NCBI RefSeq assembly: GCF_947305105.1
Contig: NZ_CAMZCS010000004.1
Span: 62,001 to 126,000, forward strand
Reading direction: 5' to 3'
DNA length: 64,000 bases
Source of the DNA: an uncultured Fibrobacter sp.
Lineage (GTDB): Bacteria > Fibrobacterota > Fibrobacteria > Fibrobacterales > Fibrobacteraceae
Positions 5,366-54,996 of this stretch are shown here, one piece after another. Both the position numbers and the translations under genes were made by a program. The notes beneath the pieces are model-generated. The model ran no database searches. It was not told the origin of the DNA and worked only from the letters and a program-made list of their open reading frames with translations. How positions within the stretch are numbered: the first letter of the stretch is position 1; each line of letters opens with the position of its first letter.

Positions 5366-5482
5366 TTTTACTCCTGTTTTTAAACCAATTTTGCCAAATA
5401 TTTCAAGGCAGAAATTTCATGTCCATAATATATCTTAAGTTCTACAAATATTGACCAAGATACCATTTGAACATTCATTTTT

Positions 5483-6202
5483 TTACATCGGGAACAAGGG
5501 GTAATTTTCCTTCGTGTACGTCCTTGTGTACGCGTTGAAATGCCACCATTCGCTGCTGAGAGGCACCCAGCCCGCGCGCTTCATAATCTTGCGGAACAGG
5601 TTCCGGTTGTCGACCTGCTGCTGCGTCAGGCGACCGCTCTGGAGAGCTTCGACCTCGCCCACTTCGCCAGCACACCGTTCAAAAGAATCGAAATCCGTGC
5701 CCATATCAAGCATCGCACCCGTGCTGTCGGCAACACCGATATCGAGAGCGAGCCCGTAATTGTGCAGCCCACCCGTCTTTCCCGACGACACGTAGTTCGA
5801 GTAGGGCGTTCCCGCCACGGCACGTTTGAGCGCACTCTGCGCATACAGCGGACGCGCCGCATCGAACACCACCAGCGTAGCCCCCGGCATCTCCTTTCGC
5901 AATAGCGCAATGGCCCGTTTCAGCTTAGGCAATGCATCCTTATGCACAAACGCACGACGGATGCCGCAATAGAGGTCGTGCCCGGTAACGTTGTCGAACG
6001 TCGCATAGCGCAAATCCATGCGGAGCCCTTTCATGTACGTAATCTCGACTAGGTTGGAATCGGCCTTTGCATAAGCAATCCACTGCTTGGCAGCCTTGCA
6101 GAAACGCACCGGCTTCGCAGGTTTCTTGGGGACAAACAAACTATCCGTCTCGTGTGCCCACGCAACCATACACAAGCAGAAGAGCAACAGAACGATTCTC
6201 AT
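5483..6202 (-). CDS. D-alanyl-D-alanine dipeptidase (VanX/DdpX-like, peptidase M15D)
   Basis: This is a 239-residue exported zinc peptidase. The signal peptide is MRIVLLLFCLCMVAWA. Zinc ligands expected for the M15 fold are present: His147 and Asp154 in GGLHNYGLALDIG, and His221 in SEWWHFN, with Glu218 as the catalytic base. The substrate-site motif VVFDAARPLYAQSAL matches the DAYRP-type segment of VanX. The family cleaves D-Ala-D-Ala; outside vancomycin-resistance clusters it is usually linked to peptidoglycan turnover and dipeptide scavenging, which fits here because no vanH or vanA partner is nearby. It precedes the TonB-dependent receptor-like gene's 3' end, separated by a CTAG-rich repeat. 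Confidence 0.88.
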   Translation of the reverse strand: MRIVLLLFCLCMVAWAHETDSLFVPKKPAKPVRFCKAAKQWIAYAKADSNLVEITYMKGLRMDLRYATFDNVTGHDLYCGIRRAFVHKDALPKLKRAIALLRKEMPGATLVVFDAARPLYAQSALKRAVAGTPYSNYVSSGKTGGLHNYGLALDIGVADSTGAMLDMGTDFDSFERCAGEVGEVEALQSGRLTQQQVDNRNLFRKIMKRAGWVPLSSEWWHFNAYTRTYTKENYPLFPM

Positions 6203-6242
6203 ACCACAAGGCTCTCAGCCTCTAGTCTCTAAATTCTAGCCA
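6203..6242. repeat. CTAG-rich intergenic repeat
   Basis: This 40-base spacer between two minus-strand genes is built from near-heptameric units such as GCCTCTA, GTCTCTA and CTAGCCA. It belongs to the same family as the spacers at 23419, 29167 and 58059. Confidence 0.6.
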
Positions 6243-8597
6243 CTAAATTCCCAACTGCACTTCAACACCGAACTGGAACCACAGTCCCATCCCCTTAGCC
6301 ATGAACGGGACAAGATCAAATCCATCCGAGTATTCCTCGTTCCTATCCCGCGTCACCCACGAGCGCTCACGTGGATTCTGCCCTCCGAGGAATTCCAGGG
6401 CTTCCACATCCAGTTTCGCAAAGACGTTGTCCACTTCCAAGTAGAACCGGGCATTCTTGAAGAAATACTTACTCGTCATAATGTCCAAGTTAACGCGGAT
6501 ATCCGTGCGGTACAAGTTCGTAAATTCGTTCAAGTCACGAAGGCAACGCGTTCCGTTTTTCTCGTCGATGGATGCAGACGGCGTAATAGCGTAGTAATAC
6601 AACGGACGGTGATACAATGCATGATGCGTAAGGATTACCGAGATTATGGAGTCCTTGCGCGGGTAGTAACGGAAGTGCGAAAGCATGTCGAGGCGGGCGT
6701 TCGCTTCCCAAGGAATCGAGTTTCCACCCTCCAGTTCGTATTCACCATAGACGGAGTTCACGTTCGTCGAGAAGGAGAAGTGATGAGACGTTTTCCATTC
6801 TATTTTCACTCCACCACCCAACGACCAAGCGTAATCCACAGGAGTCACGTCCCTGTAGTGGGCATAGGCCTTCGGCATCGGGAGTATCGGGTCCGGATAA
6901 TAGCGCCCAAACCCTGCGACTTGTCCTTCAAAATACTTAGAGCGATAACCAAAGCCCAATTTCGCAGAGGTTCCCGTTTCGAGGCGCCCCGTCAGGTCTC
7001 CGTTGTCAAAATAGGGTTTCCAGTCGCTGCGGTAGGCGGTATTGCCGAACACATGCCAGTAAGCGGAATCGGCATGCGAGAGATTCACGTCGGCATCCAA
7101 AGAAGCCGTCGGCTGCGCATTGTGGTCGAGCGCGTCGGCCACAGCACCTGCAGAAAGGATGTAACGGTTGTAATCGCCACTCCAGTTAAAACGGCTCGTT
7201 CCCGAAAGGACGCCCGTCTGATAATCCTGCGAAGTCGTACCACCAAACTCAGGATAGTTGCGTTCGATAATCTGCTGTTCGTACAGCACCGCACCGCTCA
7301 GACCAGCACCCAGGATACTGCCCTTGAAATTCTTGCTCAAGCCACCACTGATTGTGGAATGGATTTGCTCGTAACCGTCGATGAACGAAGTCTGTTCCTT
7401 GTTATCCAAAAGGTCGCGGAACCCGGTCGTATCGCGGAGCGTATCGCTCAAGTATTCCCGCACATAACCCGCATGGACACTTGTTCCGAACCTGGAATTA
7501 TATTCGGCACCAAGCACCAGGTACTGCTGCTCACCTGCGATAATATTCACAGAATTCACCTTGTCCATGTGGGTGGTGGTATCCTGCATAATCGCATACT
7601 CGTCAGAACTGTAGAGTGTGCGCAACGCCCAAGTGTCGCCCATTGAATCAGAGCCACTCAACTGCGCATACACATCGAAAGCCGACATATCAAACGGATC
7701 AGAGGATTTCACACTGCCGTCGTCAGATTCACTGTCCGCATCGCGCTTGCGGAATTCGGTATAGAACTTTTCGCCAAGGTTCTTGAGAACCTCGTCGTCC
7801 AGGCGACGCAGCGAAATCCGGAAGGAATCCCAGAAGAACCAGGGCATATCCAAAACGACTTCCTGAACGGTCAGTCCCATGGTCCCCTTGAGCCCCCATT
7901 CTCCCTTGGGTTGCTCCGGAATGTACTGAATCGAAGTTGCAAGGCCCTGCCCTAACGGCCCCGAACCATAATGGTCATGGACCTCTATGCCACTCAAGAC
8001 ATGCGGATTGACTACAGAAATATTACCTGGGAAGCCGACATCCAGGTGGCGCATATTCGGAATGCGGAGTTGCCCCAGATGGTAGGCCACATCCCCCGCA
8101 CGGGAACCTTCATAATACAAGGCGCTCGAAAAATCCTTCTGTCCCGAGATCCCGGGCATCTGGCTCAAATGCTCCGTAATATCGAAACGCATACCGGCTG
8201 CATCTTCTAGCGATTCGACCTTCACCGTACGTTCAGGTTCCCACTTTATGGGTTCGCCACCGCCCACCACCGTACTCGACCCTAGATCGCGCACATTGGG
8301 GACAAGCGAGACAACCATGTCCAGCAGGTCGGCAAAATCCTGAAGTTCCACATACACGCTGTCGTAGCCATCCTTGCTAAACACAAGAGACGCGTTCTTG
8401 GAATCAACTTCATATTCAAAGCGTCCGTCGGAATTCGTTTCACCAACAGTCTTACCACTGCGGTAAGTGATTTTCACACCCTTGATGGGCAAATCAGATT
8501 CAGATTCAAGAACGACACCAATAATGGTCGTCGGGGTCGCTGCAAACACACTAACTGCAAAAAAAGCGAGAATCCAAAAAACGGAGCGAAATTTCAT
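6243..8597 (-). CDS. TonB-dependent receptor-like outer-membrane protein with carboxypeptidase-like N-domain
   Basis: This is a 784-residue protein with signal peptide MKFRSVFWILAFFAVSVFA. Residues about 23-95 form a carboxypeptidase-regulatory-like beta domain (TIIGVVLESESDLPIKGVKI, NSDGRFEYEVDS). A plug-like region follows at about 110-230 (FDITEHLSQMPGISG, GFPGNISVVNPHVLSGIEV). The rest alternates short charged loops and beta strands and ends in an amphipathic aromatic-containing strand, as expected for a 22-strand barrel. SusC/TonB-type receptors import siderophores, cobalamin or glycans. No TonB box is obvious and no partner lipoprotein is adjacent, so the ligand cannot be inferred. The gene is divergent from the nitrilase-family gene. 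Confidence 0.75.
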   Translation of the reverse strand: MKFRSVFWILAFFAVSVFAATPTTIIGVVLESESDLPIKGVKITYRSGKTVGETNSDGRFEYEVDSKNASLVFSKDGYDSVYVELQDFADLLDMVVSLVPNVRDLGSSTVVGGGEPIKWEPERTVKVESLEDAAGMRFDITEHLSQMPGISGQKDFSSALYYEGSRAGDVAYHLGQLRIPNMRHLDVGFPGNISVVNPHVLSGIEVHDHYGSGPLGQGLATSIQYIPEQPKGEWGLKGTMGLTVQEVVLDMPWFFWDSFRISLRRLDDEVLKNLGEKFYTEFRKRDADSESDDGSVKSSDPFDMSAFDVYAQLSGSDSMGDTWALRTLYSSDEYAIMQDTTTHMDKVNSVNIIAGEQQYLVLGAEYNSRFGTSVHAGYVREYLSDTLRDTTGFRDLLDNKEQTSFIDGYEQIHSTISGGLSKNFKGSILGAGLSGAVLYEQQIIERNYPEFGGTTSQDYQTGVLSGTSRFNWSGDYNRYILSAGAVADALDHNAQPTASLDADVNLSHADSAYWHVFGNTAYRSDWKPYFDNGDLTGRLETGTSAKLGFGYRSKYFEGQVAGFGRYYPDPILPMPKAYAHYRDVTPVDYAWSLGGGVKIEWKTSHHFSFSTNVNSVYGEYELEGGNSIPWEANARLDMLSHFRYYPRKDSIISVILTHHALYHRPLYYYAITPSASIDEKNGTRCLRDLNEFTNLYRTDIRVNLDIMTSKYFFKNARFYLEVDNVFAKLDVEALEFLGGQNPRERSWVTRDRNEEYSDGFDLVPFMAKGMGLWFQFGVEVQLGI

Positions 8598-41746: not shown

Positions 41747-42022
41747 ATGAACCCGATAAAGAACATCAAGCCGATTTCGTACATCAAGGCAAATGCCGCC
41801 CAAGTTTTGGATCACGTATGCGAGTCACACACGCCTTACGTGGTCACACAGAACGGGGAGGCCCGCGGAGTCATCTTGGATGTCGATACATTCCAGACCA
41901 TGCAAGACGGGCTCAAGCTCTTCAAGTTGTTCGCGCAGAGCGAAACGGAAATCGCCAAAGGCGAAGTCATTTCGCAAAAAGACCTTTTTGATTCCCTGGA
42001 GCGCGAATTGAATGCCAAGTAA
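41747..42022 (+). CDS. Type II antitoxin, Phd/YefM family
   Basis: This 91-residue protein has the Phd/YefM N-terminal DNA-binding fold: IKPISYIKANAAQVLDHVCE, then TPYVVTQNGEARGVILDVDT. The C-terminal helix (KGEVISQKDLFDSLERELNA) would wrap the toxin. AAAGG six bases before the ATG is the ribosome site. Its 3' end overlaps the toxin gene by 11 bases, the standard arrangement for coupled antitoxin and toxin. It lies between two copies of the cas-associated repeat, so it may be one of the island's cassettes or its addiction module. Confidence 0.9.
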   Translation: MNPIKNIKPISYIKANAAQVLDHVCESHTPYVVTQNGEARGVILDVDTFQTMQDGLKLFKLFAQSETEIAKGEVISQKDLFDSLERELNAK

Positions 42023-42341
42023 AAAATTTCAGGTCATCTGGTCGAAATCGGCCGCATTCGACCTAAAATCCATCGTCACGTTCATCGCAAAAGACAGCCC
42101 CAAAAACGCCCGAGAAGTCTTGGCAAGAATCAAACGTGAATGTAAAACGCTAGAGTCGTTCCCGGACCTGGGTAAAGTTCCTGCCGAACTTGAAGCCCTG
42201 CAAATAGGGGGTTACCGTGAATTATCCATTTCGCCCTGGCGAGTCTTCTACAAGAAACTCCTCAATCAGGTTTTCGTCGTAGCCGTCGTAGATTCCAGAC
42301 GCGATCTCGAAGATGCGCTCTGGAACAGGCTGATGCGCTAG
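42012..42341 (+). CDS. Type II toxin, ParE/RelE family
   Basis: The 109-residue protein shows the RelE/ParE fold: FQVIWSKSAAFDLKSIVTFI, helix pair with KNAREVLARIKRECKTLESF, PDLGKVPAELEAL, and the closing strands GGYRELSISPWRVFYKK and VFVVAVVDSRRDLEDALWNR. Such toxins either cleave ribosome-bound mRNA (RelE) or inhibit gyrase (ParE); the sequence leans to ParE but does not settle it. The TAG stop codon (42339-42341) is part of the repeat copy 2, at the same TAG position as in the consensus. So either the repeat inserted exactly at the gene's end or the gene's last codons were recruited by it. Confidence 0.88.
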   Translation: MPSKKFQVIWSKSAAFDLKSIVTFIAKDSPKNAREVLARIKRECKTLESFPDLGKVPAELEALQIGGYRELSISPWRVFYKKLLNQVFVVAVVDSRRDLEDALWNRLMR

Positions 42342-42366
42342 GGGCTCTTTACGAGCCGAGAAAAAC
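42339..42366 (+). repeat. Diverged CRISPR-like repeat, upstream copy 2
   Basis: TAGGGGCTCTTTACGAGC followed by CGAGAAAAAC matches the consensus from its position 7 onward, with one base missing in the A-rich end. The first six bases are replaced by the toxin's last codons. Confidence 0.8.
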
Positions 42367-42376
42367 AACCTTTTTA

Positions 42377-43291
42377 CTAATTTTTCAATGCCGTAATCGG
42401 CACGACGATGACTCCATCGGGGCGTTTGTAGGCAGCGCTGCTCATTCCGCAAATAACGCAAAGATTAGATGGAGGAATGCCATCCGGGTCGTTGGAAATA
42501 TTTTTTTGTATTTCCAATAAGTTTCGTGCGGCTTCATCAATTTGATTCGCTCCGAGTTTTATTTCAAAAGCGCTCCAGCTGCCGTCGGGCATCTCGACGA
42601 CTGAATCAATTTCCCTGTTGGCATAATCTTGGTAATGGTACAATTTTCCGCCAAAGGATTTTGCATAGATATCCAGATCCCGTTCACAAAGCGATTCGAA
42701 CAGAAAGCCCAAAGTGTTCAAGTCGTGCAAAAGCTTATCTGGAGTCGCGCCCAATAGCGATGCAGCAAGCGAAGGGTCGGCCAGGTGCCTTTTTTCGGCC
42801 TGTTTAACCCTAAGCTTTGAGCGTATTTTTGTGCTGAATGGGAGCTGGTTCTCAACAAGAAAGAGTCTTTTCAAGACATCAAGATAGCTCGCGATCGTAT
42901 CCGTGTCGATATCGTCGTCATCAATTTCCTTGATGTCGTTTTTCAGGATTTTATTGGTCGCCGTGGTCGATTCGTTTCGGGCGAGTGATTTGAGCAACAG
43001 CTTCATCTTGCTCTTGTTCCGTTTGATTCCGTCGAGGCGGTCCATATCGTCGTCGACAAAGGCTTCAAGATAGGCTTTAGGAATAGCCATGGATTGTTCT
43101 GTAGTAAGTCCGAGATTGCCGGGCCACCCTCCGCGAACAACGAGTTCTATCAAATCTTTTAATTGAACGTCGCCCGTCATGACAGATTCTATTTCGCCGT
43201 TGCAGATGTCTTGTAGGGAAACGGCTCCGCTAGATGCTCCCGATTCGTATAGCGACATAGGGCGCATGCGGATTTTGGCAATTCGTCCGGT
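42377..43291 (-). pseudogene. DUF4143 AAA+ ATPase, 5'-truncated
   Basis: About 305 codons remain. The family similarity starts with TGRIAKIRMRPMSLYESG, immediately after a TAG codon at 43294-43292, and runs through the DUF4143 region (ELVVRGGWPGNLGLTTEQSM, IASYLDVLKRLFLVENQLPF, LGFLFESLCERDLDIYAKSF, YHYQDYANREIDSVVEMPDG). Intact members carry about 130 more N-terminal residues with the Walker A and B motifs; these are absent, so no ATPase activity is expected. An internal ATG could still yield a 296-residue product. The gene is opposite to cas1 and its truncated end points to it, suggesting the cas module was inserted or rearranged here. Confidence 0.8.
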
Positions 43292-43407: not shown

Positions 43408-44304
43408 ATGCCCAAACAGACTCTCATATTTGAAAATCCGGTCCAGCTTTCGGTACAAAATTCCATGCTCAAAATCGCATACAAGGACAATCCCGACAAC
43501 GTCACGCTCAGGGCAATCGAAGATATCGCCATCATCCTCATCGACAACCATTCAGCATCGCTCACCACGCCCCTCATAGGCAAATTGGCAGAACAGAATG
43601 TCGCCGTCGTATTCTGCAACGAAAAGCACATGCCGTCATCCATGCTCATGAATCTGGACGCAAACACCCTGCAAGAAAAATACTTCCGCCTGCAACTGGA
43701 TGCATCCCAGCCACTGAAAAAACAAATGTGGAAAAATGTCGTGGAGGCAAAAATCAAGAACCAGGCTCTTCACCTCAAGTCCCTTGGAAAAAAACACGAC
43801 AAGCTCCTGAAATACGCCACCGGAGTCCTTAGCGGGGACTCAAGTAACCGCGAAGGGCTTGCCGCGCAATGCTACTGGAGAGAACTCTTCGGCAAGGAGT
43901 TCATACGCGACAGGTTCGGCGAACACCCCAACGATTTTTTGAATTACGGTTACACGCTCCTGCGGGCCGCAACCGCTCGCGCCCTGATGGCGAGCGGGTT
44001 ACTGCCCTCCCTCGGCATTTTCCACAGGAACTATTACGACGCATTCCCGCTGGCAGACGACATCATGGAACCCTACCGCCCCTTCATCGATCAGATTGCA
44101 TACAAATTACACGTAGCCAAAAAGAGAAAGTTGGACAAGGAAGTCAAGGCATCCTTTCTGGAACTGTTCTACACCAACATTCCCTTCGGGGAACAGATGG
44201 TGCAGCTGGGAACATGTCTCACCTACACCACAGCCTCCGTCGCGAAATTTTTCATGGGCGAAACAAAGAACATCGCCTACCCGAGGGTAGCATGTGGGTC
44301 GTAG
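43408..44304 (+). CDS. cas1: Cas1 integrase, type II-C-like
   Basis: This 298-residue CRISPR integrase matches the type II-C group of Bacteroidetes and relatives. It opens KQTLIFENPVQLSVQNSMLK, then AIEDIAIILIDNHSASLTTP, LAEQNVAVVFCNEKHMPSSM, and LQLDASQPLKKQMWKNVVEA. All catalytic residues are present: Glu149 (SSNREGLAAQCYW), His206 (LGIFHRNYYDAF) and Glu221 with the acidic ADDIMEPYRP motif. With Cas2 it would insert DNA at the leader end of a repeat array. A GGAG site precedes the ATG. No cas9, csn2, cas4 or interference gene lies within the window on either side. Confidence 0.93.
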   Translation: MPKQTLIFENPVQLSVQNSMLKIAYKDNPDNVTLRAIEDIAIILIDNHSASLTTPLIGKLAEQNVAVVFCNEKHMPSSMLMNLDANTLQEKYFRLQLDASQPLKKQMWKNVVEAKIKNQALHLKSLGKKHDKLLKYATGVLSGDSSNREGLAAQCYWRELFGKEFIRDRFGEHPNDFLNYGYTLLRAATARALMASGLLPSLGIFHRNYYDAFPLADDIMEPYRPFIDQIAYKLHVAKKRKLDKEVKASFLELFYTNIPFGEQMVQLGTCLTYTTASVAKFFMGETKNIAYPRVACGS

Positions 44305-44603
44305 CGATTTTTGATTTTCCAAGACACTGCAAGAGCGGCCGCCAAAACATGGCCAGGTTCGTCAAGGAACTAGAAAAAGAGGGATTCAACAAGGTGCAAC
44401 GGGGAATGTACGTCCGCTACTGCACCACTGCGGACAACGGCAGGACACACCGCCGACGAATCGCCAATTTAATCGAACCCCGCTCCACGCTCTGCCTGCT
44501 GAGCGTCACGGACAGGGAGTTCCTGGAAATCTACAGCCACTTCGGCAGCACCAGGGCTCCGAAAAAATGGCCCAAATCCCAGGATTTCATCCAATTTTTC
44601 TGA
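44292..44603 (+). CDS. cas2: Cas2, type II-like
   Basis: The 103-residue protein has the ferredoxin-like Cas2 fold: MWVVAIFDFPRHCKSGRQNM, then FVKELEKEGFNKVQRGMYVR, and SVTDREFLEIYSHFGS. Asp8 corresponds to the conserved metal-site Asp of the family. It overlaps cas1 by 13 bases and so is translationally coupled to it. In type II systems Cas2 bridges two Cas1 dimers and sets the spacer length, which makes the very long inter-repeat segments downstream hard to explain by ordinary acquisition. Confidence 0.92.
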   Translation: MWVVAIFDFPRHCKSGRQNMARFVKELEKEGFNKVQRGMYVRYCTTADNGRTHRRRIANLIEPRSTLCLLSVTDREFLEIYSHFGSTRAPKKWPKSQDFIQFF

Positions 44604-44662
44604 TTTTTTCAGCGTTCAATCGCTTGCGAACCCGCATAAAATAAGGTATATTCAGATAGTAG
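44604..44662 (+). promoter_or_regulatory. CRISPR-type leader with promoter before the repeat array
   Basis: The 59 bases between the cas2 stop and the first repeat contain TTGCGA (44624-44629), a 17-base spacer and TATATT (44647-44652), a near-ideal housekeeping promoter. The expected start point (about 44659) lies 3-4 bases before the repeat, so one transcript would cover the whole array and its genes. Confidence 0.75.
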
Positions 44663-44697
44663 GTCTTATAGAGGCTCTTTACGAGCAGAGGGAAAAC

Positions 44698-44755
44698 CTC
44701 AAAACAGCTGGTAGAGTCGCTGAACGGGACGCTGATGAACGAAGTATTAAATTGA
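44698..44755 (+). pseudogene. Possible 3' gene tail at the start of cassette 1
   Basis: In frame with repeat position 1 the sequence reads TSKQLVESLNGTLMNEVLN and stops at 44753-44755. It looks like a natural protein C-terminus but is short, and another frame is also open, so the call is tentative. Confidence 0.3.
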
Positions 44756-44764
44756 AATAAAAAA

Positions 44765-44856
44765 AGAATCTATGTGGATGGTCGGCAATCTCCATCATAC
44801 GGCCTACGAACGTCCCAAGTGGCCCGCCTCGGTTTCCACTTACTCACATAGATTCT
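44765..44856. other. Multi-stem structured element inside cassette 1
   Basis: A perfect 12-bp outer stem (44765-44776 with 44845-44856, AGAATCTATGTG and its complement) encloses GATGG/CCATC (44777-44781, 44792-44796) and AAGTGG/CCACTT (44817-44822, 44836-44841). This is a multibranched fold. On the minus strand it is followed by a run of seven Ts, like a terminated RNA. It could equally be a small inverted-repeat mobile element; no target duplication is evident. Confidence 0.55.
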
Positions 44857-44890
44857 CTTATCAATATACCTCATTTCTTGGAGAAAAGCA

Positions 44891-45205
44891 ATGCTTGACG
44901 CCAAAATTGATGACAAAAAGTGCATAATCCTGCTAAAAGGCATCGAAGACAAGTCTAAAGACTTATCCAAGGCTATGAAAACCATCGCCGTTGATCTTAG
45001 AACATCCATTGAGGAAAACTTCGAGGTCGGCGGTCGCTACAGTTCACCGGGGGCAATTATTGGCGGCTCAAAAAAATGGACTATAAAAAACGGGCGCGGC
45101 ACCCTTCTTGGTTCTTCCCCAGGATCAAGCTCTCTGCACTTGTCATTTGTTACCAAATTCGATAAAGACAGTGGTCTTATAGAGGCTCTTTACGAGCAGA
45201 GGTAA
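44891..45205 (+). CDS. Phage virion morphogenesis (Mu gpG-like) protein, 3'-truncated by a repeat
   Basis: A 104-codon frame with a good GGAG site. The translation has the pattern of Mu-type tail completion proteins: DLSKAMKTIAVDLRTSIEEN, FEVGGRYSSPGAIIGGSKKW, then GRGTLLGSSPGSSSLHLSF. Family members are longer (140-180 residues). Here the native sequence ends at Ser-Gly and the last codons (LIEALYEQR, stop) are read from repeat copy 2; the stop arises from that copy's altered end (AGGTAA). So this is the 5' two-thirds of a phage gene captured between two repeats. It is the clearest foreign DNA in the array. The family call rests on motif resemblance only. Confidence 0.65.
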   Translation: MLDAKIDDKKCIILLKGIEDKSKDLSKAMKTIAVDLRTSIEENFEVGGRYSSPGAIIGGSKKWTIKNGRGTLLGSSPGSSSLHLSFVTKFDKDSGLIEALYEQR

Positions 45206-45208
45206 AGC

Positions 45209-45290
45209 TACGTATTCCAGCTACAATTATGCAAATAACAGCATCGACCATTTATTCTTGGATATGATTGGATACTTGTTCTCGAACTAG
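45209..45290 (+). pseudogene. 3' gene tail at the start of cassette 2
   Basis: Directly after the repeat, in frame with its first base, the sequence encodes TYSSYNYANNSIDHLFLDMI and GYLFSN and stops at 45288-45290, ten bases before the next gene's ATG. No start codon is available inside the repeat. Best read as the C-terminal tip of a gene that once preceded the secreted-protein gene. Confidence 0.5.
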
Positions 45291-45300
45291 GAGGGGCAAA

Positions 45301-46053
45301 ATGATTGTCAGGAAATTAATATTTTTTTTGATTATTGTTACGATAAGTTCTTTCGCCAAGGAAAAAATCGTCTTCGCAACAGGAGAGAATGTTAAGACGA
45401 AATTAAAGAAAGCTGAATATTATAATGATCTAAAATATTTTAAAGAACAAATGACAAATTTTTTTGGAGAAACTCTGCTAGATGTTAATCAGGATGGTTT
45501 TTATTTGGAGATGGGAAAATGGAGAGTCTCTCAAACGGAAATTTTGGGTGATGGGGGTTATTCTGCGTATATTCCTGTGAAATCAAAAAAAATGAAGATG
45601 ATTTATATACCTCGATATCAGTGTGAGGATGGACCAAGTATGGGAAAATGCCGCGAGTGCTTAGAAAATGCCATATGGAAAAATAAAAGGAATATTTATG
45701 ACAGATGTTATGGAATAAAACAGATTTCAGATAGTGTGGCAATTCTTATAAAGAAGTTTTTTGATGAAAATAGACTTTCTTTATGGGAATTAAGTCTTGA
45801 AAATCTTTATTCAAAAAGAGGGGAGCAATGCGACGATCACTTCTATATCCTTTCTCAAGAAAAAAGTGAGAGAAAAATTATCCGAATGGTCCCGCCGGGC
45901 TGTATTGATAACGAAATGAAAAAGAATAAAATCATCGACGAGTACATTTACCTGTACGAGCAGTTCTATTCTATATTTCACAGCAACTTTGAAGAATGCC
46001 GCTGGGAAAACCTTGCTGACAAGAAACAGTTGGACAAGTGCCTCAGCTACTGA
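45301..46053 (+). CDS. Cassette gene: secreted protein, unknown
   Basis: The 250-residue protein has signal peptide MIVRKLIFFLIIVTISSFA and starts at ATG 45301, preceded by a strong AGGAGGGG site. The mature part is Lys/Glu/Tyr-rich and contains a pair of cysteine-bearing segments (QCEDGPSMGKCRECLENAIW, and a later DRCYGIK, GEQCDDHF, ECRWENLADKKQLDKC), suggesting disulfides in the periplasm. Codon use and base composition are AT-rich, unlike the flanking chromosome. No family is recognised. The stop is 15 bases before repeat copy 3. A periplasmic immunity or inhibitor protein is a reasonable guess from context, not from sequence. Confidence 0.7.
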   Translation: MIVRKLIFFLIIVTISSFAKEKIVFATGENVKTKLKKAEYYNDLKYFKEQMTNFFGETLLDVNQDGFYLEMGKWRVSQTEILGDGGYSAYIPVKSKKMKMIYIPRYQCEDGPSMGKCRECLENAIWKNKRNIYDRCYGIKQISDSVAILIKKFFDENRLSLWELSLENLYSKRGEQCDDHFYILSQEKSERKIIRMVPPGCIDNEMKKNKIIDEYIYLYEQFYSIFHSNFEECRWENLADKKQLDKCLSY

Positions 46054-46130
46054 TGAAAAAAACTATATGTCTTATAGAGGCTCTTTACGAGCAGAGGGAA
46101 AACTAGAACTTTTAGAATGAGGATGAAATA

Positions 46131-46619
46131 ATGAAGATTACTCTTGCTTTTTTATTTCTTGTTGGCATTTCATCTGCTCAGTTGTTGGAATCTGAAGAAA
46201 GATCAGTTTACCAAAATCATCCTAATTTGGATTATTTTGATAAAATTTCAAAAAAAAGAACGAATAAAAGTCTTTATCAATTGGCCCACGAAAGCTATTT
46301 TGCAATGGACAGCGCCAAAGGTTATACTTTATCAGGAAGAGAACTTCGTGCTGTAAATATGATTGTTTCTAATGTTCCGGGTGTTTTAGATAAGGATCCT
46401 TTTTTAGAATCTGTTTATATTTATAAATTAAATTCGGAGGTTCTTTATATTTGTATTGGACCAAATGAAAATGAATATTACATGAAAGAAAGCGGTGTAT
46501 TCGATAATTCCTCAAAAAAAAGAGGGAAAGGAATGATTCGTGGGGGCGGAGGCGGAGAATATCTAGTAAATTTGAAAACAATGTCTGTTATAGAAAAAAA
46601 AAGTGGTGGAGATAAATGA
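46131..46619 (+). CDS. Cassette gene: secreted protein, unknown
   Basis: The 162-residue protein has signal peptide MKITLAFLFLVGISSAQ and starts at ATG 46131, overlapping the stop of a short upstream frame (TAATG). The mature part includes LAHESYFAMDSAKGYTLSG and, near the end, a Gly-rich stretch KGMIRGGGGGEYLVNLKT. AT-rich codon use. No family is recognised. The stop codon (46617-46619) is three bases before repeat copy 4. Like the previous cassette it holds one complete gene on the plus strand with its own ribosome site, GAGG. Confidence 0.7.
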   Translation: MKITLAFLFLVGISSAQLLESEERSVYQNHPNLDYFDKISKKRTNKSLYQLAHESYFAMDSAKGYTLSGRELRAVNMIVSNVPGVLDKDPFLESVYIYKLNSEVLYICIGPNENEYYMKESGVFDNSSKKRGKGMIRGGGGGEYLVNLKTMSVIEKKSGGDK

Positions 46620-46657
46620 TGAGTCTTATAGAGGCTCTTTACGAGCAGAGGGAAAAC

Positions 46658-46736
46658 TGAAAAACGCTCTCCTCTTGAAGGTGTTGCTCCGGCAGACAAT
46701 ACTAATATCGTCAAACCATTTGATGAAGAGTGGTAG
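46658..46736 (+). pseudogene. 3' gene tail at the start of cassette 4
   Basis: In frame with the repeat's first base: EKRSPLEGVAPADNTNIVKP, then FDEEW and TAG at 46734-46736, three bases before the ATG of the small membrane protein. It reads like the true end of a larger protein; its beginning is missing. Confidence 0.5.
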
Positions 46737-46739
46737 TTT

Positions 46740-46937
46740 ATGAAATTTTTTCTTCAAAGTTTGGTTTGCGCAATTATTTTGACTATAATTGATATGTATT
46801 TAACGCAGAATAGATTGGGGGCGTTGCCGAGAATCCCTTTGTCAGAAGGTAATTTTGTACTTGGTTGTTTTGTCTCGTTTGTAACATCCTTTGTTTTTTC
46901 ACTAATTATTGTGTATTGTTTGAAAAGAAAAAAATAG
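46740..46937 (+). CDS. Cassette gene: 65-residue two-helix membrane protein
   Basis: Two hydrophobic segments (FFLQSLVCAIILTIIDMY and FVLGCFVSFVTSFVFSLIIV) flank a short loop NRLGALPRIPLSEG, and the end is basic (YCLKRKK). It starts three bases after the stop of an upstream gene tail, which is the spacing of an effector-immunity or operon pair. Small two-helix proteins are common immunity proteins against membrane-attacking toxins; I infer this only from arrangement. After its stop about 70 GC-richer bases, with more coding-like scraps, lead to repeat copy 5. Confidence 0.55.
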   Translation: MKFFLQSLVCAIILTIIDMYLTQNRLGALPRIPLSEGNFVLGCFVSFVTSFVFSLIIVYCLKRKK

Positions 46938-47042
46938 CTGGGGCTGTTGCGGGTGCTGCCGGAAGTGAAGTGGGATGATTACTGCGGGATATGAAAGAGC
47001 TCTCTGTATCTTATAGGGGCTCTTTATGAGCGGAGGGAAAAC

Positions 47043-47175
47043 CGAATCCCTACGGCAAGGGTACGTCCAGGCGTCCACCATCGAAGAGTTCACCGCCATA
47101 CTCCAGAAGAAAAAAGGTAAAAACAAAGCCCCCCGACCCAAAAGAATCTATATTAGAAGTGTAACGCGGAGATGA
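47043..47175 (+). pseudogene. 3' gene tail at the start of cassette 5
   Basis: In frame with the repeat's first base: TESLRQGYVQASTIEEFTAI, LQKKKGKNKAPRPKRIYIRS, VTRR, then TGA at 47173-47175. The basic, helical 44-residue end looks like a phage or DNA-binding protein C-terminus. It stops three bases before the next ATG. Confidence 0.5.
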
Positions 47176-47178
47176 AAA

Positions 47179-47310
47179 ATGACACTCCTGATTATAATTG
47201 CCTGTTTATGCTTTTTGGTAGTCCCGCTACTTTGGTGCCTGGGCTTCCTTTGGGGATTTATCTGGAACAGAATCTTAAAACCGCTCATGGCCTACGAAAC
47301 AGAAGGCTAG
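47179..47310 (+). CDS. Cassette gene: 43-residue membrane peptide
   Basis: The frame ATG 47179 to TAG 47310 encodes MTLLIIIACLCFLVVPLLWC, LGFLWGFIWNRILKPLMAY and ETEG: one long or two short membrane helices. GGAG lies seven bases before the ATG; an alternative frame starting at 47172 has no such spacing, so I prefer this one. A GGCAGG/CCTGCC hairpin follows (47335-47356), just before repeat copy 6. Type unknown; it could be a small immunity protein or a toxin peptide. Confidence 0.5.
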   Translation: MTLLIIIACLCFLVVPLLWCLGFLWGFIWNRILKPLMAYETEG

Positions 47311-47394
47311 TTTTTCCACCCCAAAAATTAACGGCAGGGTGCAAAATCCTGCCTCTTCTGTCTTATAGCGTCTCTTTACGAGCAGAGAGAAAAC

Positions 47395-53163: not shown

Positions 53164-54996
53164 CTAGTAAACCAGTTTAAAATCATCAACGACAAGTTTG
53201 GAATTCTCGCCACCACGATACTTGTTATCGTTCCCGAGAGTTCCCCCAGCAACAACAAACGCATACGCCGAAGACGCAAACATCACATGGATAGTGGCAA
53301 CATTCTCGTTACCCGTCCCCACCGAAAGTCCCGATGCAACCGGATAATTCGAAGACAAGAGCCCCGAATCACTACCATAGGCCAAGTCTACATGGACTTT
53401 GTGCATACCGATGCTGGAATTGTCCGTCACAACGCCCGATGCGACCACCTTGTTATCGCGACTCACGAGCATCACATAAATCAAACTCTTTTGCGGGTAA
53501 GTCGAATTGCTGTTTTTCACATGCGAATAAGAATAGGTTACGTCAAAGCCTGTGGGGCGCGCACTGAACGATTTTCCAAAGGTCATGTCCTTCGATATAT
53601 CAGAAGCTCCAGTACTTGGCGTTCCGCTAGAATAACCTTGTTGGTAAATATCAATGGCCGAAGTACCATCATACGTTCCGGCAAAATAAAAACCACCGGC
53701 CATTTTCCAGGAACCTTCTATACCAATCCAAGATCCGGAAACTTCTTTTGTCGAAATCGTCATCTGCGATGACCCAAATTCAAGGTTCGCCTCCGACTTA
53801 ATCTTAATCGCAGCCTCTGTCACTGTATTCTCCATAGCGTCACTTGTTGTCGCCCAGAATCCGCTATAGTCGCGAGCATCGAACGTCGTCCCCGGGAGCT
53901 GCATTCCGGCAACCACCGTGTACTCGTTGAGCACACCTAAATCGTCAACAAATTTCATTTTCACAGGGCGTTCCAAATTGGCAACCGTATCCATCGGCAA
54001 AACCCTCAACGCCTTCAAATTCGATCCGTAAGGAACTTCCACATAAACCTTGTTTCCTTCCACATGAACGGAGCTATTTTGCTTATCCACGGCAAAATCA
54101 CTCAGGAGAACGACTTGATCGGAATCCGAGGATGACGGAGGAACAATGGGGGTCAACGGATCGTTCGTTGGGACCTCAATAACCGACGAACTGCTCGATT
54201 CTTCCGAAGATGAGCTTTCCGGTTTCACAGATGACGAACTGGCCGGCGGCACCGACGATGAACTCTCCGGATTTGCAGAAGAACTGCCAGGCTTCTCCGA
54301 AGACGAACTCCCCGGCTTTGCAGACGAGCTACTGGACTTATCCGAAGATGAACTCCCCGACTTTGTAGAAGAACTACTGGATTTCTTCGTGGACGACGAG
54401 CTCTCTGATTTTGCAGATGAACTGCTAGGCTTCTCCGAAGACGAACTCTCCGACTTTGCAGAAGAACTGCTAGGCTTCTCCGACGATGAACTCTCTGATT
54501 TTACAGAAGAACTGCTGGACTTTTTCGAGGACGACGAGCTCTTCGACTTTGTAGAAGAACTGCTGGACTTCTTTGAAGACGAACTCTTCTCAGCGACAAA
54601 GACGACTTTCCATACATCGACAACGCGGTCCTTCCCATCCAAAATCGCAAGGGCGAGCGCACCAGTATCGGGAACGGGAATTTTTGCGCCCGTTTCCACC
54701 GGCATAGCCCAATCCAGTTCAGGATCTTCCAGGTCATCCCCCACAACGACATAGGCCGAATAGTTTCCCGAAAATTCAAACTTCTTCACCTTGACCGTAC
54801 TTTCGGCATTCTTAGGATAGTTGCACTCGATCGTACGCGTCAACGAATCAACGCCGCCCTCTTTCATACAATCAAGTTCCAACAATTCAACCGGTCGCGA
54901 AACAGGATGAACGACTTCGTCGGAATCGCCACACGAAGTCAGCAAGGCAAAAGCCAGCGCCACACAGGGAAGTAATAAACCATTTCTCACAAACAT
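53164..54996 (-). CDS. Surface lipoprotein with Ser-rich repeat linker and PCMD-like domain
   Basis: The protein has 610 residues from ATG 54996, which has GGGAGG seven bases upstream. A GTG two codons earlier is too close to that site. Signal peptide and lipobox LTSC are followed by an N-terminal domain of about 110 residues, then a striking linker (about 135-275) built from units such as SSSSEKPSSSSAKSE. The C-terminal part (GTTFDARDYSGFWATTSDAM, FYFAGTYDGTSAIDIYQQGY, TIHVMFASSAYAFVVAGG) is PCMD-like. It is a paralogue of the gene 13 bases downstream, and both probably sit on the outer membrane. The linker is tandemly repeated at the DNA level (54180-54600). Confidence 0.8.
   Translation of the reverse strand: MFVRNGLLLPCVALAFALLTSCGDSDEVVHPVSRPVELLELDCMKEGGVDSLTRTIECNYPKNAESTVKVKKFEFSGNYSAYVVVGDDLEDPELDWAMPVETGAKIPVPDTGALALAILDGKDRVVDVWKVVFVAEKSSSSKKSSSSSTKSKSSSSSKKSSSSSVKSESSSSEKPSSSSAKSESSSSEKPSSSSAKSESSSSTKKSSSSSTKSGSSSSDKSSSSSAKPGSSSSEKPGSSSANPESSSSVPPASSSSVKPESSSSEESSSSSVIEVPTNDPLTPIVPPSSSDSDQVVLLSDFAVDKQNSSVHVEGNKVYVEVPYGSNLKALRVLPMDTVANLERPVKMKFVDDLGVLNEYTVVAGMQLPGTTFDARDYSGFWATTSDAMENTVTEAAIKIKSEANLEFGSSQMTISTKEVSGSWIGIEGSWKMAGGFYFAGTYDGTSAIDIYQQGYSSGTPSTGASDISKDMTFGKSFSARPTGFDVTYSYSHVKNSNSTYPQKSLIYVMLVSRDNKVVASGVVTDNSSIGMHKVHVDLAYGSDSGLLSSNYPVASGLSVGTGNENVATIHVMFASSAYAFVVAGGTLGNDNKYRGGENSKLVVDDFKLVY

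Follow-up and report, generated by a model that had tools for sequence, protein, structure and literature searches.

Gene-length phage and other DNA between the repeats of a Cas9-less Cas1-Cas2 array in Fibrobacter

INTRODUCTION

How does the 5′ half of a phage gene come to end exactly at a short repeat beside a pair of cas genes? The locus that raises this question lies in the window, by which we mean the whole 64 000-nt stretch analysed here (uncultured Fibrobacter sp., contig NZ_CAMZCS010000004.1), where six 35-nt direct repeats stand directly 3′ of cas1-cas2 and are separated by ORF-bearing segments of 317-860 bp. CRISPR adaptation writes guide spacers of ∼30 nt. Beyond this single gene, the main result is a Cas1-Cas2-linked array of rumen Fibrobacter in which such phage fragments lie, and we ask how it was built, where its inserts come from and what they may do for the host.

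RESULTS

Features of the locus

All features lie on the forward strand.

43408-44304, +: cas1, orphan type II, 298 aa (TIGR03639, E 1.9e-83; PDB alignments; dN/dS 0.05-0.11)
44292-44603, +: cas2, 103 aa, overlapping the end of cas1 (PF09827, E 2.6e-9; PADLOC Cas2_II, E 4e-20)
44604-44662, +: leader, with promoter-like TTGCGA-N17-TATATT at 44624-44652, conserved before repeat 1 in ∼30 arrays
44663-44697, +: repeat 1 (leader repeat)
44698-45173, +: cassette 1, 476 bp of Mu-like phage DNA, a structured RNA and the 5′ half of gpG
44762-44860, +: structured RNA copy (model R1; 83 bits, E 1e-16; this copy was used to build the model)
44891-45205, +: truncated gpG ORF, 104 aa, 94 phage codons followed by LIEALYEQR and a stop from repeat 2
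45174-45208, +: repeat 2, 3′ end GGTAAAGC
45209-46068, +: cassette 2, 860 bp; ORF 45298-46053, secreted-like, without family
46069-46103, +: repeat 3
46104-46622, +: cassette 3, 519 bp, filled by ORF 46131-46619, without family
46623-46657, +: repeat 4
46658-47007, +: cassette 4, 350 bp; ORF 46740-46937, membrane-like, without family
47008-47042, +: repeat 5, four differences from repeat 1
47043-47359, +: cassette 5, 317 bp, phage-related, common to strain G022
47360-47394, +: repeat 6, terminal

The repeat contains a short inverted repeat (GCTC...GAGC), and no inverted repeats of at least 40 nt were found around the window array. The promoter match in the leader, taken alone, is not above chance. 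Searches of the window cassette ORFs against Pfam, NCBIfam, PHROGs and PADLOC gave nothing significant, and no source was found for the cassette 3 protein. Cassette 5 is 82% identical to a stretch near the Mu-like prophage of G003, and for cassette 1 the phage and viral collections held only more distant relatives, with no exact source. Outside the array, a degenerate repeat-like copy lies upstream of cas1 at 42333-42367 (PWM score 23.5), with similar copies in L095 and L106, and six overlapping tandem copies with a 45-48-nt period occupy 54209-54574.

A gpG gene closed by a repeat

The first-pass annotation had described a Mu gpG-like ORF that is cut exactly at repeat copy 2, and the alignments bear this out. 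Codons 1-94 of the ORF at 44891-45205 are 60% identical to a Mu-like gpG whose frame stays open in G003:C4, where the full-length protein has 179 aa and matches PF05069 at E 2.9e-12. The fragment by itself falls below the Pfam reporting level, and it is through homology to this full-length member that it can be placed in PF05069 (phage gpG / virion morphogenesis family). G003 is a Mu-like prophage carrier by gene order and content, with a transposase (Mu-transpos_C and rve domains), a gpF-like gene and gpG. The alignment to its gpG extends to residue 97, that is to base 475 of the 476 of cassette 1, and homology does not extend past the repeat edge. The C-terminal nonapeptide, LIEALYEQR, is encoded by frame 3 of repeat copy 2, and among the homologues seen there was no full-length protein that ends in this peptide.

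The stop codon had been ascribed to an altered end present only in copy 2. Among the window repeats TAA is indeed confined to that copy (GAGGTAAAGC versus GAGGGAAAAC), but the genus-wide consensus repeat end is GAGGTAAAAC, the same TAA-bearing end (GGTAAAAC), and the stop is therefore the usual state and no special alteration. The consensus repeat has stop codons in two of the reverse frames as well as in every forward frame, and in most frames it therefore supplies the stop for a gene truncated at a cassette edge. The gpG piece is probably phage by-catch in cassette 1, because the RNA just upstream of gpG is what all cassettes from that phage site have in common.

Phage DNA runs exactly from repeat to repeat

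The further proposal that foreign DNA was joined at a repeat boundary holds beyond this ORF: Mu-like phage DNA meets repeat edges exactly, here and in other arrays. The leader-proximal cassette of G012 (c37), which lies between two identical repeats, is identical over 310/310 nt to IMGVR_UViG_2738541339_000002, c102 matches IMGVR_UViG_2738541339_000001 at 186 of 187 nt (99.5%), and the first 333 nt of the c93 interval, whose downstream repeat is a diverged copy below the main repeat threshold, are 99.7% identical to IMGVR_UViG_2747842506_000002. Both ends of the phage match are repeat edges in these three cases. A fourth cassette, c24, is 99.5% identical over 1892 nt to IMGVR_UViG_2236876025_000095. 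The array sequence switches to the repeat at points where the phage sequence runs on, and the array repeat was absent from the phage contigs checked. Judged from these alignments, the inserts of several cassettes are copied phage DNA. No PAM or common flanking motif was seen at cassette ends. The sole mismatch between c102 (L127:6215-6401) and its phage source changes the gpG start from ATG to TTG.

Probable growth of the array at its leader side

Next to the leader the repeats do not differ from one another (G066 has nine identical copies); divergence is greatest in the terminal repeat for 20 of 25 arrays, versus 9.8 expected (permutation p 0.0008). Strains compared at the same chromosomal locus differ at the leader side: G021 has one more repeat-cassette unit (398 bp) than G012, directly after the leader repeat, and the window has four more units (2345 bp) than G022 at the leader end, the two sharing cassette 5 and the DNA downstream. 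Each of these differences, taken singly, is possibly a deletion instead of an insertion; overall we favour insertion at the leader end because repeats are identical near the leader and diverged at the terminus. Together, strain pairs and gradient point to leader-end addition with repeat duplication, as in type II CRISPR-Cas.

Spread and geometry across the genus

The repeat pattern occurs in 63 of 80 Fibrobacter genomes, and the reversed control gave none. At intact loci cas1 ends ∼361 nt and cas2 ∼62 nt before repeat 1, with one locus shifted by ∼80 nt. The leader of 60-75 nt with TTGCGA-N17-TATATT is also conserved in arrays that lost cas1-cas2; many arrays have no cas1-cas2 in cis, and several of these retain cas1 or cas2 fragments. 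An upstream scan within 6 kb found no other conserved neighbour genus-wide. Within each array all repeat copies have the same orientation and there is one leader.

We extracted 107 intervals and excluded the 11 that end in a second leader. The remaining 96 cassettes, an approximate count since interval c93 holds diverged repeats missed by the threshold, are 145-3074 bp long (median 437.5), and none is spacer-sized. In 44 of 67 cases the longest ORF (at least 60 aa) is directed away from the leader. Genes for HipA, VapBC/MazE, RelB and Fic lie mostly in the 11 second-leader intervals and are therefore not counted as captured. Toxin-antitoxin-like, HipA and AAA_14/DUF4143 genes also adjoin leaders or cas1 (upstream) or sit between two arrays (window 41747-43267; L093:5809-6476; L100:9215-10612; L120:1450-4144), where they may be stabilising neighbours rather than captured cassettes. 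In one array (L124, G038:C5) the usual repeat occurs together with a second, diverged type (GTTTTATAGGGGCTG...) at 5438-6770, and the array contains repeated copies of the phage RNA region.

A type II Cas1-Cas2 pair without Cas9

The window Cas1 and Cas2 belong to type II families (TIGR03639; PADLOC Cas1_II/Cas2_II). In PDB alignments E149, H206 and E221 of Cas1 align with the type II catalytic set, the residues that we take to be catalytic in SpCas1 and EfCas1. With a dN/dS of 0.05-0.11, the orphan Cas1 is by codon comparison under strong purifying selection. No Cas9 (HNH_4) match was obtained in the window's genome, and no interference effector was found. In about a dozen Fibrobacter genomes there is a Cas1 with at least 71% identity to that of the window; the remaining Cas1s of the genus, mostly linked to Cas9, share ∼38-45% identity with it, are found on other contigs and, in the cases examined (L107, L108), accompany a different repeat with a period of 78. 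Both kinds occur in G045, G022 and G072, whose Cas9 is on other contigs with another Cas1. The window's genome also has a second, unrelated Cas1 at G000:C19:57882-58661 (L008).

In an IQ-TREE phylogeny of 46 Cas1s the orphan proteins form one clade (support 100/96), which nests in Bacteroidales Cas9-linked Cas1, apart from Fibrobacter's own Cas9-linked Cas1. The clade includes, on a long branch and as a single case, a Cas1 of a rumen Alloprevotella (JAFUZP010000016.1, L166), where three repeats (TTGAAATTATAG...ATTAAAAC) come after a Cas9-less cas1-cas2, at intervals of ∼593 and ∼2288 bp that contain genes. Other Alloprevotella Cas1s are Cas9-linked; each has a canonical array except L248, which starts near a contig end. 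Given enough flank, nearly all other close Cas1 relatives in 85 000 genomes have Cas9 or a regular CRISPR array, and the Cas9-linked relatives, used as a control, adjoin regular short-period arrays.

Two phage elements are captured repeatedly and complete

Two overlapping cassette families derive from a single site in Mu-like phages, between gpF and gpG. Family 1 contains a covarying structured RNA of ∼110 nt, which occupies this site in Mu-like Fibrobacter phages. Its 20 pairs are 93.6% paired and 15 of them show compensatory change (0 of 500 shuffles); the structure was drawn on the same sequences, which biases the count towards it, and the slid controls, at 36-47% paired, are still sharply different. 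The RNA is complete in every array, prophage and viral match listed, with further copies at L252:5858-5970 and L145:9381-9493, and it had no Rfam match at either threshold.

Family 2 contains an ORF of 75-84 aa, DUF7675 (PF24723, E 1.4e-30), which is complete in 14 of 14 aligned cassettes despite varied ends and both orientations. Random placement would give this completeness with a probability of ∼9e-10 (13 cassettes), to be read as an order of magnitude only, the captures being perhaps not all independent. In Mu-like phages DUF7675 is encoded on the opposite strand, in the gpF-gpG gap (e.g. L261:1155-1382), and in Streptococcus satellite phages a version with 63% identity lies near one end (L260, MK448364.1, 8397-8609). 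The L111 array holds three different DUF7675 versions. A fold search with the predicted model (pLDDT 76) gave no significant match. Other cassettes encode Fib_succ_major and lipoprotein-like proteins, an ADP-ribosyltransferase-like protein and AAA_14/DUF4143, and many cassette genes have no recognised family. That whole elements recur in this way is best explained if the useful ones are retained, and the benefit would most simply be exclusion of related phages.

DISCUSSION

Probable capture of gene-length DNA

Cas1-Cas2-driven capture of gene-length DNA into the array is the reading that we hold to be very probable. A Cas9-less type II Cas1-Cas2 would insert phage-derived and other DNA fragments of ∼0.15-3 kb into the array at its leader-side repeat, and each insertion would duplicate the 35-nt repeat. 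The array architecture and the phage origin of inserts can be read from the aligned sequences; that Cas1-Cas2 acts as the integrase is suggested by linkage, leader and polarity. On this view the array would store captured genes in heritable form rather than serve as a guide library, with presumably no crRNA made or used, and captured genes would be expressed from their own signals and, when in leader orientation, also from the leader promoter. To our knowledge, the insert length is far beyond any known Cas1-Cas2 ruler, and a missing partner could be responsible. Gene-length arrays make the determinant of Cas1-Cas2 insert length directly testable.

What the cassettes do is a more tentative matter, and for an immunity benefit, taken alone, we put the chances at slightly less than even. 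Cassettes may be kept for an advantage that the captured element (the structured RNA, DUF7675 or another small gene) gives the host; in the simplest case it would block related phages in the manner of superinfection-immunity elements. The fuller proposal, that Cas1-Cas2 copies whole phage elements such as the RNA and DUF7675 into an ordered array and thereby confers heritable immunity by gene capture, we regard as plausible, though we would not quite back it over its negation. In such immunity, accessory or exclusion genes of the phages themselves would serve the host as defences, renewed after successive infections, with neither guide RNA nor nuclease effector.

The same array could be the remains of a CRISPR system that lost Cas9, after which Cas1-Cas2 without a length ruler left random long inserts as neutral scars of no benefit. 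The absence of Cas9, the lack of a PAM, both insert orientations and the many end points are as this account expects, but strong purifying selection on Cas1, a lineage that spans the genus and an Alloprevotella, and the same two phage elements held complete repeatedly, unlike neutral sampling, make it unlikely. Identical repeats beside unrelated cassettes, which show that repeats track the array and not the cassette, tell against an integron-like or Xer/dif-like recombinase that moves repeat-bounded cassettes with Cas1-Cas2 as a bystander, as do the variable cassette ends, the lack of an integron integrase above cut-off and cas1-cas2 as the sole conserved neighbour. Such a recombinase would fit the gene-cassette content, the occurrence of some cassettes in arrays of more than one genome and the two complete tyrosine-recombinase frames in the window's genome (below the integron cut-off), yet we give it very little weight.

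Least probable of all, to the point of being nearly negligible, is that dispersed REP/MITE-like repeats were inserted between pre-existing genes and that the array is only apparent. Spacing near gene size and the inverted repeat within the repeat would agree with this, but exact phage fragments bounded by repeats, with phage genes cut at them, already contradict it, and all copies of an array share one orientation and one leader, the inter-repeat DNA differs among strains at one locus, and the cas1-cas2 linkage is conserved.

If gene capture by Cas1-Cas2 is correct, this natural and widespread lineage with whole-gene arrays would open a new route by which genes are acquired horizontally, as an integron analogue made of CRISPR parts, and possibly provide adaptive immunity via captured genes; it would also point to an enzyme that inserts kilobase DNA at a short repeat. 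In the open-access literature searched we met no account of Cas1-Cas2 arrays with gene-length inserts; this literature did not extend to preprints or to most subscription papers, and an earlier description elsewhere is possible.

Comparison with known systems

The array is like CRISPR adaptation in its growth and like an integron in its storage, and it lacks a tested defining feature of either. With the adaptation module of type II-C CRISPR-Cas it shares Cas1-Cas2 families, catalytic residues, a leader, ∼35-nt repeats, growth at the leader end, terminal repeat degeneration and phage-derived inserts. It differs in having no Cas9 effector, no visible PAM and a Cas1 clade of its own, and regular spacers of ∼30 nt are replaced by the far longer inserts with whole genes or RNAs inside.

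Integrons and chromosomal super-integrons likewise have ordered, mostly single-gene cassettes, an adjacent integrase-like gene and a promoter-like leader at one end. However, attC moves with each integron cassette, whereas the short repeat here stays with the array and cassette ends vary; nor is there a tyrosine integron integrase, TIGR02249 (IntI) giving only matches below cut-off, as in all control genomes.

Casposons are Cas1-solo, PolB-linked transposons with terminal inverted repeats (PMC4046053, PMC9939771), and they too have Cas1 outside an immune effector system and move kilobase DNA. The present locus differs in its type II Cas1, its Cas2 and its array, it has no conserved polymerase neighbour within the 6 kb upstream, and no inverted repeats of at least 40 nt surround the window array.

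Phage satellites and the superinfection-exclusion cargo of prophages share DUF7675 with these arrays, the protein family being present in Streptococcus satellites and Mu-like phages. The difference is that here the bacterium keeps DUF7675, in several phage-derived versions, inside Cas1-Cas2 arrays.
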